IMG/VR virus record: IMGVR_UViG_3300042549_001746
Coordinates: 1 to 39,299 of that record
DNA: 39,299 nucleotides
Direction: 5' to 3' (one strand)
From: a virus
Below are positions 8,469-20,723 of this stretch, one piece after another; position 1 is the first letter of the stretch, and each line of letters starts with the position of its first letter. The translations under genes were made by a program, and so were the position numbers. The notes under the pieces were generated by a model. That model ran no database searches. It was not told the DNA's origin and worked only from the letters and a program-made list of their open reading frames with translations.

Positions 8469-9650
8469 TTACATCACTCCAAAGTTGCGTAGTACAGTCC
8501 TAGTGTCGTTAAGAACTTGGCTTTTGAATGTATCGCTTCCAAGATACTCGCTGCTTTTATACTCAGCACTCTTATATTCATTTACATTCTTGAATGTTCC
8601 ATCAGGATTAGTAACATCTGTCATATCTTGTGTCTTAATTTGGTCTTCAGGAACACCGCGAATCTGCGAACGAAGGGTGATGTATGGCTGCAAACGTGCA
8701 CGCACAGTCTGACCTGGCTTAAGACCTTCTGCTAACTTACCCCACTGTAGGGCTGCAGAACGGTTAATGTCATCTTGAACAGTATCCCAAGCCTCAGGGC
8801 TACGGAGAGATTTACCTGCTAGGTTGTATACAGTTCTATTGCTAACTGGTATTCCGTTCTCATCGTACTGTGCACGAATCTCACGGACTCTCTTACCCAA
8901 TTGACCTTCATCTAACTTCTCTGTAGCGGTCATATCGCCTGCAAGGGCGCTAGATGTTAGAGCAGATAGGCGCTTATTAGCGACAGACATAATAATATCT
9001 TCGCGTTCCTGGGCGGTCATACCACCCTTAACCTTCTTCTCTCTAGCATTGAGAGCCTCTTGGTATGCTTTAACCTCAGCCTTTGTTGGCTTTTCATTGA
9101 ATACATTGAGGAAGAAATCATTTAGATTTGACTTAGCCTCAGTAGTATCTGTAAGGATAGGTCCTGTTGACTCTTGCTTATAGCCACCAGACTTAAGGTA
9201 TGAGGCTACCTTTGAATCTTTCTTAGCCAAATCAAGTACAGCATTGACGTCGCCAATACCTCTTTGCTCACCTACTGCTACCAGTTTAAGTACAGCAGTA
9301 AAGTCTTCAGGTGTGACCATACCATCAAAGGTAGGTGCAAAGTTCTTTGGATAAAGACCAGCGTTAAACATTCTCTTCTGGAATGCAATACGGTCCTTAG
9401 GTGGTAAGTTCTTAATATAAGACTGCTCGTACCCTGGCTTATAGATTGTTCCAGTTATAGGCTGACCAGTTATTGGGTCTTGACCACGTGATACGCCAGT
9501 AATTATCTTGCTCTTAGAACCACTTGTACCAGTTGATTGTCCTGCAATTAAGGCAAGTTCTTCTTGTGCTCTAGCAGATAATGTTGCACCTGAGCCTGAC
9601 TTAGTAGGACCAGGAGATGGACTAGGATTAGGAGTTGGTCCCGTTGTCAT
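8469..9650 (-). CDS. Internal virion protein candidate (393 aa)
   Basis: A low-complexity Pro/Ser/Gly N-terminus (TPNPSPSPGP) precedes a helical body. Residues ~90-115 contain FQKRMFNAGLYPKNF and FDGMVTPEDF, which resembles the short helical repeat of peptidoglycan-binding modules, though I would not assign one. The start is coupled to the stop of the 1814-aa gene as TAATG. It is likely packaged or ejected with its two neighbours. Function inferred from context only. Confidence 0.6.
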   Translation of the reverse strand: MTTGPTPNPSPSPGPTKSGSGATLSARAQEELALIAGQSTGTSGSKSKIITGVSRGQDPITGQPITGTIYKPGYEQSYIKNLPPKDRIAFQKRMFNAGLYPKNFAPTFDGMVTPEDFTAVLKLVAVGEQRGIGDVNAVLDLAKKDSKVASYLKSGGYKQESTGPILTDTTEAKSNLNDFFLNVFNEKPTKAEVKAYQEALNAREKKVKGGMTAQEREDIIMSVANKRLSALTSSALAGDMTATEKLDEGQLGKRVREIRAQYDENGIPVSNRTVYNLAGKSLRSPEAWDTVQDDINRSAALQWGKLAEGLKPGQTVRARLQPYITLRSQIRGVPEDQIKTQDMTDVTNPDGTFKNVNEYKSAEYKSSEYLGSDTFKSQVLNDTRTVLRNFGVM

Positions 9651-12600
9651 TATTTACCTTCCAATTCGCTTGCGAAAAATGCATAGAACATCTTCTGGAA
9701 ATCTGGGTTTGCTTCGATAACCCACTCTGCTTGCGCTGCAAGCCAGTCACGCATTGCTTGTTCTGACCGAGCACCAGTAAACTTCTTCTTACCTAGGTTA
9801 TTAAGTGCTGCCTGGCGTAGAGCCATATAGTCACGTAGCGCTACTATTGAAGGTAGGTCCACGAAGCGCTCATCTTGGGCAAGGTCTTCAAGTTGATTAA
9901 TAATTCGACCACGCTTGTTAGGGTCAAACTCAACTACTGGACCACCACCCATAGAATCCTTGAGTGTCTGAAGTGCTTCTGAATATTGATTCTTGTCCAG
10001 TTCGCCTGCATCTACTCGTGTCATTAGTGCGTCACGAACGGCATAGAATCGCTGATTGTTAACCTTATCGAGAATCTGCTTAGGCGATAACTTCTTCTTT
10101 GTATCGTGGATAAGATTCCACTGGTACATTTCTGTAGATAGTCCGCCACCTGGCATCACGTATCCCCATACATCCTTGTATCTAGATGCAACATCTGGGT
10201 TAGATACCACAAAGTTATATGAATCCCAGTTAGATGGACCATTGCCAGCACTTGCTGTAATGAGTGCAAATGCCTGAGATGCACCGTATAGGTTCAAGAA
10301 GTCATACCAACTCTTGTTCCAGTCACCATCATTGTTCTGATAGATAGTCTGGAAGTCCTCGTATAGTGCAGTCTGAAGAGTTGTATCCCCATCTTGGTCC
10401 TTAGCAAGACCCTGTTGTAGCAAAGCCATAGGCGATACAAGACCGATAACACCACGCATAATAGATTCCCAGCGAGAGAATGTATCTGTATCACGTACCA
10501 AGCGTGCTTGGTCTTCAGCGTTATCTAGGTTGTAGTTACCACCTGATGCTAGGTAGTTCATTACTGGCTTAAAGTTAGAAGCATATGTCTGCTCCATACC
10601 AGTAACTCCACCGATAATCTTATTCCAGTTACCAGGTAGAATTGCTGTCTGCAATCCACCACTGAAGTCTGCACGTCCGAATGGGAATAACCACTTCTGG
10701 ATACCCATTGGCATATTGTCAATAAAGTTATTATTGAATGTGCTAAGTGCGCTTAGTGGCAGGGTTACACCAGGACCAATACCTGGAAGCAGGGTACCTG
10801 CACCGAATGCAAAGTTAAATGACATAGGGTTAGCAGAGAATGCTATAGGTGCACCTGAATAGTTAGCACCCGTCATAGTCTTAGCCAACTTAGCCATCAC
10901 TGTTCCAGCGAATGGTACAAAGAACTGTCGTTGCCCAGAGTCAGGGTTGGTAAAGAAGAATCCCTGGTTAGGGTCGTAGTAATCTTCTGCATCTGTCATC
11001 AAGTAAATGGATGAAGACTGTGGGTTTTGTGTCCACTGAAGAGCCTTGACAGCCTTATAGACAGTGCCTACGTTTTCTGTACCTAGTTCACTCCACTTTC
11101 GTATTGTGTTCTCCCAGGCTGCACCGAATGGTGCAATCAAACGTAGTTGATGGAAGATAAGTCGCTTCTCTTGTGCGTTATAGAACAGACCCTTTACCTG
11201 ATTGCGTGCATATGTATCAGCATATGCGTGTGCGTCCTCAAGTGACATAGGACCCTTGCCATCTGCTGACTTAAATGCACTCCATACTGGGTGCTTTTGA
11301 CCAATAGGCTTGCCTGCACGTTGCAATGGAGTAAGTGAACTCTGTGCGACTTCCTGAAGTTTAGCCTTAGCGTTAGAGTCTAGAGCCATTGCTATACGAT
11401 TGATAGCATCCCAGTAAGACTGGCGGTACTCTGGACCAAAAGTAGAATTCTTTTCTAATTCTGTAGCCTTGTCAAAGAACCATTCTACGAAACTGCGCTT
11501 GTCCATACCAGATTCGACATATGCCAAATTCTTAGATGGAACATTTACTAGGACATCATCCCATCGTCCAGCAGTTGAAAATGTGTCTCGCAAGTTACGG
11601 GCAAAAGTTGCCTGTGCATCAAGCAGTGCTTTCTTTCCAGAGCGCATTTGCTTTGAGTTGGTTACTGAGTTAATAGCCTCATCGTTTGGGCGTGGGATTC
11701 TAAACTCTGCGTTACCAACGGATGTCTTGCCACGTGCCACAAGTTCCATAAGTGACTTATTACCACCTGTGGCTTCTGTGATTCTAGCAAGAAGTGATAT
11801 ATCTTCACCATTTGGGTTCTTGCCAGAGTAGAGATAATTCTTAAGACCCTCAGGAGTCTTGATAAACGCCTTGAACTTATCTGGTGTTGACTCAGCAAAA
11901 GCGTCTAAGTCCTTACGTCCACCACCATAGAGGAAGTAATCGACTACAGCATCCTGACGGAACTGACCTTTGGCTACTGCTGCCTTGATTTGAGGTGTAT
12001 CAAACCCTGCAACAACACGAGCAAACATATCTGAGTTAAGCATACGTAACTGATTTGCTATGCCATCGAAGAAGCGCTTGTGACCAAAGCCAACTGCGCC
12101 GACATTCTTGAACTGCAAGACCTTAAAGTCGCGTTCGTCGAACGCTCCGCCTCTGCCAGAGTTCATCATATCTACATATGAGTTCTTTGCTCTTTGACCA
12201 AGGCTTTCATCCAAGATGTCTAGTGCGTCATCACCAGTTGAGAATGCTTCGTCAAAAACTGTGTGGCGATAGGTGTCGAACTGGCGAAGTACTTTACGCC
12301 AAGACTTACCCTCATCGCGCCCAAGCCACATAGCCAAAGCCATACCTGGGTTATTAAAGAATGAAATGTGTCCAGTTGCTGTAACACGAATCTGCTCTTC
12401 TGCAATGTTACGGATGATATATGCTGGACGAACCAACATTATCTTCTTCCAGAAGTTACCGATAAGCAAGTCACCGATTTCTTCACCCTTGGAAAGGGTC
12501 TTATACTTAGAAAGACTATTTGTTAAACGCAGAAGTTCTGTTACTGGTGGGAAGTATACGGTTGAGTTTAGCAACTCAGATGAAAGGTGTGGTCCAGGAA

Positions 12601-15094
12601 GGACAACGCTTTCACCCTTTAGGTTCATATACTTAAGTTCTGCTCCAGCAATGTGGCGCTTAGCCCAGTAGGATGACATCTGCTCTGCTGATGACTCGAA
12701 TGCTGTGGTGTACTTCTTGAAAGCATCCTGCATATGTGGAGGGATGTTGTCAGCGTACTGATTAAACACAGCCTTCATCAATTTAACTGATGATGCGTAG
12801 CCTGCAACTGCGTGAGTCGAGGCATTTGCTATCTCATCAATAAGTTCATCAAGAACATTCTTGTTCAACTTAGCGGCTACGCCGAAATCTTCTACAGAAC
12901 GGAGAAGTTCCTCTCTGTCGTGTACGTTTACAATGGAGCCAGCCTTAACCTTGGTCTGATAACCACGCTTAAACGGCTTAGCGATGAGGCTGTATTGTCC
13001 CTTAAAGCCTGCGTTAACGCCTTCAAATAATGCAGCAACCTTACCGTGGTCTTCCATACGAGACTGAACACGTGCACCTACACCCTGTAGGGTGCGAACT
13101 GCTGGCATTGCAAACTTTGTACGCTCTGCTGCTTTGATTCCAGCACGCTCTAAAATGCCAGGCTTAAATACGCCAGCCTGAATTTCACCCTTAAGCAGAT
13201 ATGGTGCTAGTGCGTCAACAACGTCATCTGGAGTAGTCGCATCAGCCAAAGCCCTTGCCACATCGTGGGTAATGCGACCATCAGCCTTACGCCAAATCTG
13301 CTTCCAGTCTGTCATTTCTACAAGTCTGTCAACAGCAACTGTGCCATTACCATTAGTCAAGAACTCTGCAATAGATTGATATGCGAATTCTGGACGCTCA
13401 AGAGTCTGGTTTATATTAGCAAGACGTTGGACTTCAATCTCCCAAGCCTTACGCTTGTCCTTAAGACTTAAGGTAGCATCAGAAAGTTTTTCAGAAAGAG
13501 TACGCTCTGCCTTCTTAGCCTTGGCAGTATCCTTCATAGCACGAGCACGTGCTGCTTCCATTATGCGCTGAGTGCGCTCACGTTCTGCAACCTGCTTGAT
13601 AGAGAACTTTTCTGCCTCTGATGCTTCCTTAACAAAAGCAATCGACTTCTTTTCAAGTTCTTTTGCTGCAGCAATAGCCTCAGGGGTTACTGGTGTCTCA
13701 GGAACAAGAGCCCTTGCTCCAGCAAGTTTATCCTCAAGTGCTTTGATTGAAGCCTGTAGGTTATCAAGGTCATCTGCTGTATACATAGGTATACGACCTG
13801 CTGCTACTGCTTCAGAAATTTCTAACTTAATCTGTTCTAATTGCTTAGTCTGCTTAGCAAGAGCATTCTGTGTACGCTCAACAACCCTAGGAGCCTTAGA
13901 TGCTTCTTCAAGAGCCTTGCGTGCTTCTGTAGCAGCGGTTGCTTTCTCACTTAACTGAGCCTTAGATGCAGATATTTCGTCAAGTCTAGCCTGTGCAACA
14001 CGTACACTAACAGCAGACTTAATTGCATCTTGAGACTTACCAGTTGCAGCAGCGCGGGCATCTGCAGCAGCACGGGCTGCACTCTCAACATCAAACTTTT
14101 TTAGTTCTTCTGATTGCTTGAGGATTGCCTTTGACGCAATAAGGGCTTGCGCTTCTTGTTCTTCAATCTTTGTGAGACGGTCCATAGTCTCGGCTGCAGC
14201 CTTAAGAGCACCTGATGCTTGCTGTTGTTCTGCAAGTTTACGAAGTTGCTTAATTTGCTGCGCTCTAGCAATACCTGGGTCAAGAAGGAATGAGCCAGCA
14301 ATATCTGCTGCTAAGGCAATGTTTGCACCAGCAACTGTTTCTGGATTTCCAAGCGTAAAAAGATTAGAGAATGTATCGCCAAATGCGGTACGTGGTCGGT
14401 ATCCAAGTATCTTGCCATCTGAATTCTTAATAGCAATCTTGGCTGCGCCCAATGAAGCCTGACGAGCAGCGTGTCCAATTCCCATTTCTTCTGATGCAAA
14501 GAATCCTTCACCCATTTGGATGTCTGGAAACTTTTTCTTTTTAGCATCAGTAATAGACTTGGTAATTACCTGACCATACTGAGTTTGGTTAAAGGTGCTT
14601 TCTGCTATCTGACCTTGTTCTTCGCCACCAATAAATGGGTTGATTCCAAGTCCAGCGGTAACGCCAGATACAACGCCACGCTTTCTTACTTGCTCAAGAG
14701 TGGTTCGATAGGTAGCGTCAACAAATTGTGGGATTGCGCTAAGTACTGTTACAGCACCACGAACACCAAACTTAATTGCTTGCCAAGCCTGACCACGAGC
14801 AGTGTCCTTGAACTTTTGAGTCTCACGTTGAATTGCAACATCTTTTTGGTTAGCAAGACGCTCTTCACGAGTGGCAGCATCAATGTTAGCAATGCTAGAT
14901 GCAACACCAGACTTAGCATCCACACCAAGTTGAGATAGTGATTTGAGAACACCAGGAGAAGAAATATTTCCCTGTGCGTTCTTCTTAATCAACTCAGCCT
15001 GATAAGGGTTAACTGATGCTGCGGCAGCATAAATTGCTTCAGCATCAATTTGAGCCTGTGTAAGTATATTAGAAAGTTTTTTTGGGTCAGCCAC
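9650..15094 (-). CDS. Giant internal virion / ejection protein (1814 aa)
   Basis: The largest gene of the genome, starting at GTG overlapping the previous stop (TAGTG). Residues ~280-560 are Ala/Lys/Glu-rich long helices or coiled coil. The remaining ~1200 residues are mixed helical with aromatic and glycine patches (around 1400-1450) that could be membrane-active. No tail-tube, sheath or frameshifted tail-chaperone genes exist nearby, so a T7 gp16-like ejection protein fits better than a tape measure. A tape-measure role cannot be excluded. No transglycosylase motif was recognised. Confidence 0.6.
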   Translation of the reverse strand: MADPKKLSNILTQAQIDAEAIYAAAASVNPYQAELIKKNAQGNISSPGVLKSLSQLGVDAKSGVASSIANIDAATREERLANQKDVAIQRETQKFKDTARGQAWQAIKFGVRGAVTVLSAIPQFVDATYRTTLEQVRKRGVVSGVTAGLGINPFIGGEEQGQIAESTFNQTQYGQVITKSITDAKKKKFPDIQMGEGFFASEEMGIGHAARQASLGAAKIAIKNSDGKILGYRPRTAFGDTFSNLFTLGNPETVAGANIALAADIAGSFLLDPGIARAQQIKQLRKLAEQQQASGALKAAAETMDRLTKIEEQEAQALIASKAILKQSEELKKFDVESAARAAADARAAATGKSQDAIKSAVSVRVAQARLDEISASKAQLSEKATAATEARKALEEASKAPRVVERTQNALAKQTKQLEQIKLEISEAVAAGRIPMYTADDLDNLQASIKALEDKLAGARALVPETPVTPEAIAAAKELEKKSIAFVKEASEAEKFSIKQVAERERTQRIMEAARARAMKDTAKAKKAERTLSEKLSDATLSLKDKRKAWEIEVQRLANINQTLERPEFAYQSIAEFLTNGNGTVAVDRLVEMTDWKQIWRKADGRITHDVARALADATTPDDVVDALAPYLLKGEIQAGVFKPGILERAGIKAAERTKFAMPAVRTLQGVGARVQSRMEDHGKVAALFEGVNAGFKGQYSLIAKPFKRGYQTKVKAGSIVNVHDREELLRSVEDFGVAAKLNKNVLDELIDEIANASTHAVAGYASSVKLMKAVFNQYADNIPPHMQDAFKKYTTAFESSAEQMSSYWAKRHIAGAELKYMNLKGESVVLPGPHLSSELLNSTVYFPPVTELLRLTNSLSKYKTLSKGEEIGDLLIGNFWKKIMLVRPAYIIRNIAEEQIRVTATGHISFFNNPGMALAMWLGRDEGKSWRKVLRQFDTYRHTVFDEAFSTGDDALDILDESLGQRAKNSYVDMMNSGRGGAFDERDFKVLQFKNVGAVGFGHKRFFDGIANQLRMLNSDMFARVVAGFDTPQIKAAVAKGQFRQDAVVDYFLYGGGRKDLDAFAESTPDKFKAFIKTPEGLKNYLYSGKNPNGEDISLLARITEATGGNKSLMELVARGKTSVGNAEFRIPRPNDEAINSVTNSKQMRSGKKALLDAQATFARNLRDTFSTAGRWDDVLVNVPSKNLAYVESGMDKRSFVEWFFDKATELEKNSTFGPEYRQSYWDAINRIAMALDSNAKAKLQEVAQSSLTPLQRAGKPIGQKHPVWSAFKSADGKGPMSLEDAHAYADTYARNQVKGLFYNAQEKRLIFHQLRLIAPFGAAWENTIRKWSELGTENVGTVYKAVKALQWTQNPQSSSIYLMTDAEDYYDPNQGFFFTNPDSGQRQFFVPFAGTVMAKLAKTMTGANYSGAPIAFSANPMSFNFAFGAGTLLPGIGPGVTLPLSALSTFNNNFIDNMPMGIQKWLFPFGRADFSGGLQTAILPGNWNKIIGGVTGMEQTYASNFKPVMNYLASGGNYNLDNAEDQARLVRDTDTFSRWESIMRGVIGLVSPMALLQQGLAKDQDGDTTLQTALYEDFQTIYQNNDGDWNKSWYDFLNLYGASQAFALITASAGNGPSNWDSYNFVVSNPDVASRYKDVWGYVMPGGGLSTEMYQWNLIHDTKKKLSPKQILDKVNNQRFYAVRDALMTRVDAGELDKNQYSEALQTLKDSMGGGPVVEFDPNKRGRIINQLEDLAQDERFVDLPSIVALRDYMALRQAALNNLGKKKFTGARSEQAMRDWLAAQAEWVIEANPDFQKMFYAFFASELEGK

Positions 15095-17925: not shown

Positions 17926-19794
17926 CTATCCGTAAGTTTGTGCCCATTGCTCTGCAAAGGCTTCGTCTAAATTCAGTGAACCACGATTGGACATCTGTGC
18001 CCTCGTTGCCCATCGGTTGGTTTGGTACTGTCCCACTCTGGATGACTGTTGCATCAACTCACGAATGCGGATTACCGCAAACCATAAAGCCATAACGCAG
18101 TCGGTAGGGTTCTTGGTGTCAGGCTTCCACGTAATCAACTCTTGAACTAAAGTCTTAAGACCTTCGGAGCCTTCGTTAGAAGGCAGTTCGATAATGTTGT
18201 TATCGTTAAAGCGTCCATCACGGCTGTTGCCAAAGAGCATTGCCATAGATGCCACACCAAAAGATGTGTCCCACTTGTTCTTACCAGTGAAGTGTGAGTT
18301 CAACTGGCACCCATACTGGGCTAGAAAACTTCTTAGATTCTCATCCAGGGCGTAAGCCTTCTGGTGAGCGTTGATTTCGATTCGTACTTCTTGGGGCTTG
18401 TACTTCTCAACCCAATCTTCAATCAGATTCTGAATCTTTGCTGGTGTTGGTTCAGTCATATTGACCGCATCTAAAACGTAAATCTTGCCATCGGCTCGGT
18501 TGTACGTAGCGATGACTGCGCCTGTGGCGCCCGACATAGCAGGGTCAAGACCCATCACTGTGTAGGTGGACTCTAAATGCTTAGGGTGTCCAGGTATTCC
18601 AGCCTTTAGTGGTCCGCGCTTTCGCATTCCGTTGATGGAAGATTGCACACACAATGGTGAGAAGATGCTGTCTTCTTGGACATCCTCTTGCTGGTAGACC
18701 ATAGCCCAGACAGAGGGTGCGACTTCAGAGCGACGCGTAAAGAGAGAAGGTCCGTCCCACTTGGGAAAAAGTCCGTTCTCATCTGGCTCGTCCAATTCAT
18801 TTTCTTGCTGGTCTGATTTAGCCCAAAGCGTTTTCCAGTCAGCGGGCTTCTCATCAAACTCAAGTACGGCTGGCATAGCGCAGTAGGTGAACGGGGACTT
18901 GCCACCGCTCCACTGCTTTGGGTCACGCAACATCTTATAAAGGTCAATCGGTGCCACTCTGGTTCCGACAATAATCAACTTACCGTGGCGACCAAGACGG
19001 GTGATGACTTCTTTCTGAAGCCAGTCCATCTGTTTTTCCCACTCGTGGGCGTTTGACCCCATCACTGCGTCATCGACGATAATCAGGTCAGCACGAGCAC
19101 CGTAAATCTGGGAACCGATACCGAGGGCTTGGACCGTTGGGTCCTTCTCGCCTGAGTCTCGACCTGTGCCTAGGTAAATCATATCTGCTTGCCACTGGGT
19201 GGCATCTGCCTTGTATCCACCATTAGGTCCAAAGGCAACCTGTAGTTTAGTGTAGGCAGGGTGTGAGAGTCTTGTCTTGATAGCCCCTAGGAACTTACGA
19301 GCCATACCCTGGGTCTTAGAGACGATAATGACTCTAGTGTTGGGGTTGGTCACAATTCGGTAGACCACGTAGTTGGTCGTGATGACCGTGGACTTGGCGT
19401 GCTCAGGTGGAACGTTAATCAGGATTCGGTTCATCGCCGATGGCTCGTAGGTCATAGCGGGATGTAGCCATCTCGGTTCCCGACCCTCAATCATATCGAA
19501 CCAATTGAGGTGGTGGGGGAAAAGTTTGGTGTCTAGGAACTGCTCGCAGAAGTCAGGGAACTCGATGTCCTTAAGTTCCTTTAAGTCCGCTTTGACGCCT
19601 TTGCCCTCTAGGCGGGCTTTTTCGGAGCGTTCCTTAAATTCAGGGTCCTGCATCACCCATTGGCGGAAGGTGGTGTCATTACGATTGACGGTACCCATAG
19701 CCCCAGTGATGGTGTTGCCCTGGGCTAGTTGGATGAGAACTCGCTCCTGGGCTTCCTTCTTGGACATATCCTGCTTGCCCGCTTTGCGTCCCAT
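17926..19794 (-). CDS. terL: Terminase large subunit (622 aa)
   Basis: DNA-packaging motor. The N-terminal ~60 residues look like a helix-turn-helix (GNTITGAMGTVNRNDTTFRQW), so small-subunit DNA recognition may be fused here; no separate terS was found. The Walker A variant is PPEHAKST (129-136), with Ala replacing the usual Gly. Walker B is LIIVDDAV. The C-terminal RNase H-like nuclease shows VMGLDPAMSG, RIEINAHQ and PTDCVMALWF, giving the Asp/Glu/Asp metal triad. It is the first gene of the late operon, after a ~320-nt structured leader. Confidence 0.93.
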   Translation of the reverse strand: MGRKAGKQDMSKKEAQERVLIQLAQGNTITGAMGTVNRNDTTFRQWVMQDPEFKERSEKARLEGKGVKADLKELKDIEFPDFCEQFLDTKLFPHHLNWFDMIEGREPRWLHPAMTYEPSAMNRILINVPPEHAKSTVITTNYVVYRIVTNPNTRVIIVSKTQGMARKFLGAIKTRLSHPAYTKLQVAFGPNGGYKADATQWQADMIYLGTGRDSGEKDPTVQALGIGSQIYGARADLIIVDDAVMGSNAHEWEKQMDWLQKEVITRLGRHGKLIIVGTRVAPIDLYKMLRDPKQWSGGKSPFTYCAMPAVLEFDEKPADWKTLWAKSDQQENELDEPDENGLFPKWDGPSLFTRRSEVAPSVWAMVYQQEDVQEDSIFSPLCVQSSINGMRKRGPLKAGIPGHPKHLESTYTVMGLDPAMSGATGAVIATYNRADGKIYVLDAVNMTEPTPAKIQNLIEDWVEKYKPQEVRIEINAHQKAYALDENLRSFLAQYGCQLNSHFTGKNKWDTSFGVASMAMLFGNSRDGRFNDNNIIELPSNEGSEGLKTLVQELITWKPDTKNPTDCVMALWFAVIRIRELMQQSSRVGQYQTNRWATRAQMSNRGSLNLDEAFAEQWAQTYG

Positions 19795-19808
19795 TTAGTG
19801 TCCCATCT

Positions 19809-19917
19809 AATAAAATCCCACAGGCGTTTGGTCTATACCTTGCGGTATTTCAGGGACGTGTCTGTGGGGACCTAGGAGTATTCTGCAGTCTTCTCTAGGT
19901 TCAATCCTGTACCCCAC
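19809..19917 (-). promoter_or_regulatory. Attenuator-like RNA element, terminase-proximal copy
   Basis: In the leftward transcript GTGGGG (19869-19864 region) can be paired in two exclusive ways. With 19912-19917 it forms a 6-bp P1 closing an 11-nt bulge and P2 (ACCTAG/CTAGGT, 19870-19875 with 19895-19900). With 19817-19823 it gives the 7-bp stem CCCACAG/CTGTGGG, followed directly by the U-rich ATTTTATT. A small inner hairpin (19835-19848) lies in the terminator arm. This is the layout of a riboswitch or antiterminator switch. The ligand or factor is unknown. Confidence 0.65.
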
Positions 19918-19952
19918 CCAGCGAACGCTTCTGACAACAATTCCGAGTGGGG

Positions 19953-20043
19953 AATAAAATCCCCAACGTGCCTTAGCAGAGGCTGGGGTACCCAGGCTTT
20001 TCTGCAGTAGTCTCTGGGTCTGTACCTGTGCCCCTCTGGGGCA
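19953..20043 (-). promoter_or_regulatory. Attenuator-like RNA element, promoter-proximal copy
   Basis: Second copy of the same design. GGGG at 19985-19988 can pair with CCCC 20031-20034 (P1, around P2 ACCCAG/CTGGGT, 19990-19995 with 20014-20019) or with CCCC 19961-19964 (terminator stem, inner helix GCCT/AGGC), followed by ATTTTATT. P2 differs from the other copy by a compensatory change (C-G here, U-A there). Both keep an 11-nt bulge with ACAGG and a loop with ACTGCAGAA. A 6-bp hairpin TGCCCC/GGGGCA (20029-20043) can compete with P1. Confidence 0.65.
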
Positions 20044-20094
20044 AAATATAACACCTATCACGCCTATAAAATAACGGCATAACTCTGGCGCATT

Positions 20095-20107
20095 CCTACG
20101 AAGTAGG
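20095..20107. other. Small hairpin CCTAC/GTAGG
   Basis: A 5-bp perfect stem with a 3-base loop, just inside the predicted start of the late leader transcript. It may protect the mRNA 5' end or act as an RNA-binding site. Confidence 0.4.
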
Positions 20108-20151
20108 TTCGATATTTATATATTATATCGAACGAGCGAAGCCCTAGCGAA
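20107..20151 (-). promoter_or_regulatory. Candidate late promoter with overlapping palindrome
   Basis: Reading leftward there is a perfect TATAAT (20128-20123) with TTCGCT 17 bases upstream (20151-20146), placing the start near 20116. The -10 box and start region lie inside a perfect inverted repeat GTTCGATAT-9-ATATCGAAC (20107-20133), which looks like an operator. Transcription from here would give a leader of about 320 nt before terminase. The -35 is poor, so activation or the phage sigma-like factor may be involved. Confidence 0.55.
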
Positions 20152-20211
20152 GCGAAGTTCGCTAGAACTTTAATAAGTTCTTGCTATATAAGATAACCCG
20201 TTGGAACGGGT
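20144..20211. other. Three consecutive perfect hairpins
   Basis: CTAGCGAA/TTCGCTAG (8 bp, 20144-20165), AGAACTT/AAGTTCT (7 bp, 20164-20181) and ACCCGT/ACGGGT (6-7 bp, 20196-20211) follow each other closely. The first overlaps the -35 of the candidate late promoter. They could be protein-binding sites, a structured RNA or origin structure. No coding potential. Confidence 0.5.
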
Positions 20212-20264
20212 AAAACCGAACACTAGGTATTAAATATATTTATATATGGGGGCTAATATATATA

Positions 20265-20288
20265 AAAGCCCAGGTCAGCCAGGGCTTT
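20265..20288 (-). terminator. Terminator-like hairpin in control region
   Basis: AAAGCCC/GGGCTTT forms a 7-bp stem with a 10-base loop. In the leftward direction it is followed by TTTTATATAT, so it could stop transcription entering from the origin side before the late promoter. Confidence 0.45.
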
Positions 20289-20372
20289 ATAACAGAAAAA
20301 TTTAGGGTAAGACATATACATACATCGTACACAATCTTAATACACCTAGGGTCAAAACATTCTGACTACATA

Positions 20373-20392
20373 CAATTGTCGACATATCGACA
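20373..20392. promoter_or_regulatory. TGTCGACA operator-like site 1
   Basis: CAATTGTCGACA here recurs exactly at 20590-20601. Its core TGTCGACA is a perfect palindrome, and in this copy it is followed by TATCGACA, giving TGTCGA-CATA-TCGACA. Two copies flanking the candidate origin suggest binding sites for a phage or host regulator. Confidence 0.4.
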
Positions 20393-20423
20393 CTGACCTG
20401 TCTCTGTAGATTGTCCACTATAT

Positions 20424-20442
20424 GAGACCCCTGACGGGTCTC
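20424..20442 (+). terminator. Hairpin GAGACCC/GGGTCTC
   Basis: A perfect 7-bp stem with a 5-base loop, followed rightward by TATTTACTTTAC. The T-rich tail is weak. It may terminate a short rightward transcript or mark the left edge of the AT-rich origin segment. Confidence 0.4.
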
Positions 20443-20547
20443 TATTTACTTTACATAATAAATGAAAAACGGATTATCAAATCAAAATGGGAGATGGTAC
20501 TCTCCCCCTGTGCATAACCCTGTGGATAACTTTGCCCCTGTGGATAA
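20443..20547. other. Candidate replication origin: AT-rich stretch and DnaA boxes
   Basis: An AT-rich segment (about 20443-20488) is followed by three same-orientation repeats: TGTGCATAA (20509), TGTGGATAA (20521) and TGTGGATAA (20539). The last two are exact reverse complements of the DnaA box TTATCCACA. Each is preceded by CCCTG or CCCCTG. This layout of unwinding region plus clustered DnaA boxes is that of a bacterial oriC. It sits at the point where transcription diverges. Confidence 0.6.
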
Positions 20548-20589
20548 GTCTCATATGGCGGGGAAGTAGTTGAAACTTAAACTACTTTT

Positions 20590-20601
20590 CAATTGTCGAC
20601 A
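20590..20601. promoter_or_regulatory. TGTCGACA operator-like site 2
   Basis: Exact second copy of CAATTGTCGACA, lying 28 bases upstream of the first GlxR/CRP-like site, in position to influence the early promoter. Confidence 0.4.
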
Positions 20602-20628
20602 AATAGACTTTTCTCCCTTGTCGGTTGA

Positions 20629-20683
20629 TGTGATGTAAATCACACGATTTAGACTTGACAAGCGTGTAGGCGTGGGATAAGTT
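20629..20683 (+). promoter_or_regulatory. Early promoter 1 with GlxR/CRP-type site
   Basis: TGTGATGTAAATCACA (20629-20644) fits the TGTGA-N6-TCACA consensus of CRP-family regulators and the TGTGANNTANNTCACA form known for actinobacterial GlxR. It is followed 10 bases later by a perfect -35 TTGACA (20655-20660) and, 17 bases on, TAAGTT, which fits the actinobacterial TAnnnT -10. It drives the early operon starting at 20724. Confidence 0.7.
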
Positions 20684-20723
20684 ACGTGTAACAACTTAAT
20701 ACCAAACCAACAGGAGGAAGAAA

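Follow-up and report, generated by a model that had tools for sequence, protein, structure and literature searches.

The window, i.e. the whole stretch of 39,299 nucleotides analysed here (IMG/VR record IMGVR_UViG_3300042549_001746), carries about 19.8 kb of leftward genes, which extend from terL, itself included, to the left end. A very large reading frame of 1814 codons (9650-15094) lies among these leftward late genes. The window encodes a WhiB gene and shows weak similarity, below the cutoff, to a sigma-70 region 4 domain, which is in line with the Planktophila phage family. The entire divergent intergenic region (19795-20720) is rich in hairpins common to relatives (e.g. GTTATGCCG...GGCGT) and probably serves as the promoter region of the late and early genes or as an origin. 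Just upstream of terL, on the minus strand, lies an element in two tandem copies, W1 and W2, of about 72 and 98 nt. An earlier, sequence-only reading of the window had described here two imperfect copies of one RNA design, and all the parts that it listed were found in place on this strand. The features of the locus are the following:

17926 to 19794, minus strand: terL, terminase large subunit (PHROG 38, E 7.7e-72; Pfam Terminase_6C).
19809 to 19906, minus strand: element copy 2 (W2), a hairpin, a long P4 and ATTTTATT (R1 70.0 bits; R3, built without W2, E 9.3e-14).
19809 to 19868, minus strand: long P4 of W2, CCCACAG...CTGTGGG, with the inner part ACGTCCCTGA..ATACC/GGTAT..GACCAAACG (sequence comparison).
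19870 to 19900, minus strand: hairpin of W2, with P2 ACCTAG/CTAGGT, P3 AG/CT and loop ACTGCAGAATA (sequence, covariation and R3 model).
19912 to 19952, minus strand: inter-copy hairpin (CCCCACTCGG...CTGGGTGGGG), containing the G strand that the sequence-only reading gave to P1 of copy 2 (fold).
19953 to 20025, minus strand: element copy 1 (W1), a P2/P3 hairpin, a terminator-like hairpin P4 and ATTTTATT (R1 86.3 bits; R3, built without W1, E 4.2e-21).
19953 to 19988, minus strand: P4 of W1, CCCCAGC...GTTGGGG, then ATTTTATT, terminator-like (sequence, fold and two P4 pairs with double changes in the family).
19990 to 20019, minus strand: hairpin of W1, with P2 ACCCAG/CTGGGT, two bulged A flanking a G-C pair, P3 CT/AG and loop ACTGCAGAAA (covariation in 11 copies).
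20030 to 20042, minus strand: constitutive leader hairpin GCCCC-AGA-GGGGC, which provides the 5' G strand of copy 1 in the sequence-only reading (present in relatives without the element; fold).

In W1, the order of the parts is GAGGGG, CACAGGTACAG (11 nt), ACCCAG, a loop with ACTGCAGAA, CTGGGT, A, CCCCAGC, GTTGGGG and ATTTTATT, and in W2 it is GTGGGG, TACAGGATTGA (11 nt), ACCTAG, a loop with ACTGCAGAA, CTAGGT, C, CCCACAG, CTGTGGG and ATTTTATT. The element folds as a P2 helix of 6 bp, a bulged A, a G-C pair, a second bulged A, a P3 helix of 2 bp and the loop RCUGCAGAA(U)A, the motif CUGCAGAA being the loop segment of this hairpin, followed by a one-nucleotide spacer and the terminator-like P4, which contains G-U pairs in W1. 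The P2 compensation between the copies pointed out earlier was confirmed (C-G to U-A), and P3 provides a second one, with CU/AG in W1 versus AG/CU in W2. Neither this inner P3 helix nor the inter-copy hairpin appeared in the sequence-only description; the latter hairpin was absent from every other locus fetched. The inner part of the long P4 of W2 is identical in the leader L088 and nearly so in L004.

Related terminase loci and the hairpin itself were searched, and 11 copies, W1, W2 and 9 from other phages, were aligned. Compensatory double changes were found in 6 of 13 named pairs, two each in P2, P3 and P4. Paired cells amounted to 98.6% in the 11 copies compared to 83.8% after shuffling, and the structure broke down when the partners were slid; 11 copies are few, and several are identical or almost identical in hairpin sequence. 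A covariance model (R3) was built from 8 copies in other phages, both window copies being excluded. On the window it recovered exactly W1 and W2, with E values of 4e-21 and 9e-14, the next best being 0.18. It is thus confirmed that W1 and W2 belong to one RNA family, far beyond chance.

The invariant loop together with the six compensated pairs constitutes an aptamer-like core with covariation. In a search of Rfam (4227 families) at permissive E values and gathering-free thresholds, the element remained unmatched, by ribozyme families as by all others, in agreement with the earlier statement that no known riboswitch family could be recognised. A coding sequence was rejected, as no reading frame is open throughout all the copies and each is broken in at least one homolog. 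The element therefore presents a conserved RNA fold with no conserved reading frame, as a phage small noncoding RNA does. Rfam thus has no entry for this structured RNA family, while phage noncoding RNA cargo as a kind is already known. All 11 copies exhibit the P4 hairpin, but with only 4-6 T in the next 8 nt, a weak U-run for an intrinsic terminator.

Among 2.9 million viral contigs scanned with a sequence pattern, the element turned up solely ahead of terL, in actinophages of fresh water that are related to cultured Planktophila phages. The window terminase is a member of a large group of related viral contigs, and the nearest named records to its TerL are two, each with 84% TerL identity, one of them being LanE43AprF5 (OX376641). 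By analogy with these relatives, the host would be a member of Ca. Nanopelagicales. Annotated phages searched with the leader gave chance-level fragments only. A pattern scan over 85,000 bacterial and archaeal genomes yielded 19 matches, approximately the number expected by chance, none of them with the P2 complement or the following C run, and a host riboswitch or CRISPR-repeat mimic with this sequence is thereby disfavoured.

We then took a census of 163 distinct terL-plus-leader sequences. The element was present in 10 of the 163, a frequency that is not unbiased since the sample was enriched by pattern searches, and 136 had none of the modules or tRNAs sought. On the TerL tree, 10 changes are needed for the 10 carriers, no fewer than with random placement, and the TerL proteins of L010, a carrier, and L001, a non-carrier, are 100% identical. 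When carrier leaders are aligned to related empty ones, the cassette stands out as a single additional block, most cleanly in L004 and L010, and in the close relatives of the window its site lies between CACAGG and the pre-terL ATGGGACA stretch. At this same spot L282, which shares 99% TerL identity with the carrier L004, holds a tRNA-Ser and another RNA hairpin module. A tRNA-Trp in L011 and a tRNA-Ser in L088 begin directly after the TTTT of the element, and the leaders of 8 of the 10 census carriers, window included, contain no tRNA recognised by ARAGORN. Additionally, hairpin type and P4 type recombine, as L088 combines the common hairpin with a long P4 whose main difference from that of W2 is one compensated pair change. 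The element is therefore an optional, swappable cassette at a spot that elsewhere holds tRNAs, and not a conserved riboswitch.

These data also bear on a feature acting at the DNA level, such as a packaging (cos or pac) site, an attachment site or a cruciform, in which pairing would be kept as inverted repeats. The position beside terL and the helices, which are inverted repeats, would agree with it, but presence differs among phages with identical TerL, G-U pairs occur in P4 of W1 and in a sibling module, and the site is shared with tRNA genes, so that such a feature is highly improbable.

The sequence-only reading had further proposed that the C-rich strand alternates between the 5' G strand (P1) and the 3' G strand, as a riboswitch-like attenuator whose tandem copies gate the structural operon. 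The complementarities that it reported for the terminase-proximal copy do exist, as 6-bp GTGGGG/CCCCAC and 7-bp CCCACAG/CTGTGGG. Nevertheless, P1 has at least 4 pairs in only 3 of the 11 copies, P1 of 4-6 bp being possible solely in W1, W2 and L010. The 5' G strand comes from the invariant leader (GCCCCAGAGGGGC), which is retained when the element is absent; in L084 and L088 this strand is missing. When W1 was folded with the terminator strand left out, its own leader hairpin gave −20.3 kcal/mol versus −15.5 kcal/mol with P1 forced. In the free fold of W2 in full context, the G strand stays within the 19912-19952 hairpin; P1 forms when the upstream half of this hairpin is removed, which makes the outcome conditional on an intact leader.

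Considering that the P1 strand belongs to the leader, that P1 occurs in 3 of 11 copies and that it loses in folding, mutual exclusion is not a conserved property of the family. In related leaders the alternative pairing is lost while the hairpin covariation is kept, which goes in part against the proposal on its own terms. What stands of the attenuator is a structured, compensated RNA in two copies with a terminator-like hairpin end; the riboswitch, or mutually exclusive antiterminator, does not. Gating of the operon fails as a family rule, since most relatives have this late operon but lack the element, one of them with a TerL identical to a carrier's. An occasional switch effect may still occur in the window itself. 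A cis-acting attenuator or riboswitch, which would sense a ligand or factor and set the read-through into the late operon, is consistent with a terminator-ended hairpin placed between the divergent intergenic region and terL, with a conserved loop that could be an aptamer and with the 4-6 bp alternative P1 of W1, W2 and L010. It is judged unlikely given the restriction of P1 to those copies, with a strand that is the leader's own, its energetic inferiority in both window copies, the close relatives without the element and the chance-level matches in bacterial genomes, the usual place of metabolite riboswitches.

Other RNA modules were observed in the same leaders. A second RNA family that is not in Rfam occurs just upstream of terL in L243-L258 and L082 (e.g. 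L244 at about 2315, minus strand; L246 at 1434, plus strand). Its hairpin has the invariant CTGA(C/G)ACCTCTCGCAGAAAGT(G/T)GAA, C going with G and G with T in 14 of 14 aligned copies, and is followed by a tRNA-like domain with the T-arm GGGTTCGAATCCC and often by tRNA-Arg(ACG). Identification of this tRNA-like module as a Y RNA, the partner of Ro60, was rejected, no TROVE protein being found in 14 phage records. A small hairpin module, GAACAATCCCTG...CAAATTGC, is present in the terL leaders of L034, L035, L130, L254 and L282 and at 1066 (minus strand) of L281, in which no homologous terL was found. Its stem covaries, with two pairs showing double changes and with G-U pairs present, its internal loop is like that of the long P4 of W2, and in most cases it adjoins tRNA genes (tRNA-Thr in L281). 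Homology of the element with the sibling module containing GCAGAA was rejected because covariance models do not bridge them, and the BLAST hits that the sibling hairpin gave in phages of Aeromonas and Erythrobacter did not exceed chance level. A further module, GCCTACACCGACAATGG, is a repeated hairpin in the same leader spot of L035 (1407) and L088 (166); the L064/L089 and L045 leaders hold more repeated hairpin modules at this spot, and some of these repeated modules end in TACTTTT.

It is possible, though we propose it only tentatively, that the late leader is an RNA-gene exchange site. At least three structured RNA families outside Rfam, namely this element, the hairpin with the tRNA-like domain and the small hairpin found next to tRNAs, would trade places with tRNAs there, and would work in trans while the phages infect Ca. 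Nanopelagicales, abundant actinobacteria of fresh water.

For the element itself, our preferred hypothesis, to which we give a probability of about 0.5, is that of an optional small structured RNA carried as cargo: the late leader would be its source, its terminator-like 3' end would be leaky, and it would act in trans via its invariant loop. The conserved fold, the patchy presence, the position and the sharing of the site with tRNAs and structured RNAs are observed; transcription, the 3' ends and the trans action are inferred. Transcripts of the late region would extend across the cassette, which lies between the late promoter region and terL; P4 and its short U-run would stop part of the transcripts, while read-through would supply terL. 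The 3' end could come from P4 and the U-run, or from cleavage by an RNase, which could be RNase P in the copies with a tRNA directly downstream, and the released RNA would act through the invariant loop during lytic growth. Several points count against small-RNA cargo: the copies are few and partly alike in their hairpins, the census sample was enriched, the weakness of the U-run makes a discrete 3' end uncertain, and the constant position just upstream of terL fits a cis role too.

Alternatively, the hairpins could be passive, processing, insulating or protecting the 3' ends of transcripts while travelling with tRNA cargo, in an RNA without a target of its own. The element does abut tRNA 5' ends in L011 and L088, and tRNAs are the neighbours of the stand-alone module, with its internal loop similar to that of the long P4, in L035, L130, L254, L282 and L281 (tRNA-Thr). 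However, most carrier leaders (8 of 10) hold no ARAGORN-recognised tRNA, and the conservation of the loop RCUGCAGAA and of the bulged A's goes far beyond what processing would require of a hairpin, which makes this explanation rather doubtful.

Besides correcting the view that a riboswitch gates the late operon, the analysis contributes an RNA family that is supported by covariation and missing from Rfam, in phages whose kinship points to Ca. Nanopelagicales as hosts. It also points to a defined spot for RNA-gene exchange in these phages. Of greater interest is the locus as a whole, where tRNAs trade places with further RNA modules that are not listed either.

In lambdoid late leaders (lambda 6S RNA at pR'-tR', StxS), a terminator lies between the late promoter and the late operon and a short RNA results. 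A terminator before the late operon would likewise yield a short RNA here, but the lambdoid terminator belongs to Q control as a constant component, whereas most relatives of the window are without such a terminator. The put RNA of HK022, an early-operon antiterminator of about 70 nt with two stem-loops (PMC9378689), resembles W1 in size and in its two successive stem-loops, and W1 would, like put, lie close downstream of a phage promoter region. Put, however, has no sequence match to the element and no following U-run described, and the element is optional with a terminator-like hairpin end. A put-like antitermination RNA, which by analogy would bind RNA polymerase and confer terminator resistance along the late operon, would suit this layout and a place at the start of a long operon; the U-run after the second hairpin, the absence from the nearest relatives, the redundancy of two tandem copies and the lack of an Rfam match make it quite improbable.

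HDV-like theta ribozymes, which are self-cleaving and proposed to process the tRNA 3' trailer (PMC10879173), are, like the element and phage tRNA cargo, structured RNA modules next to phage tRNA genes; the element, by contrast, matches no ribozyme family and sits 5' of a tRNA or alone. A further comparison is with the isolate Planktophila phage LanE43AprF5, for which WhiB and sigma factor genes are reported (PMC10202952, OX376641). It belongs to the same phage group as the window, with a TerL 84% identical and the same late-leader layout, and differs from it in having a leader without the cassette. As the Planktophila phages E7 and F5 are isolated and cultured (PMC10202952), the site being empty in F5, the effects of the cassette are open to testing in these relatives.
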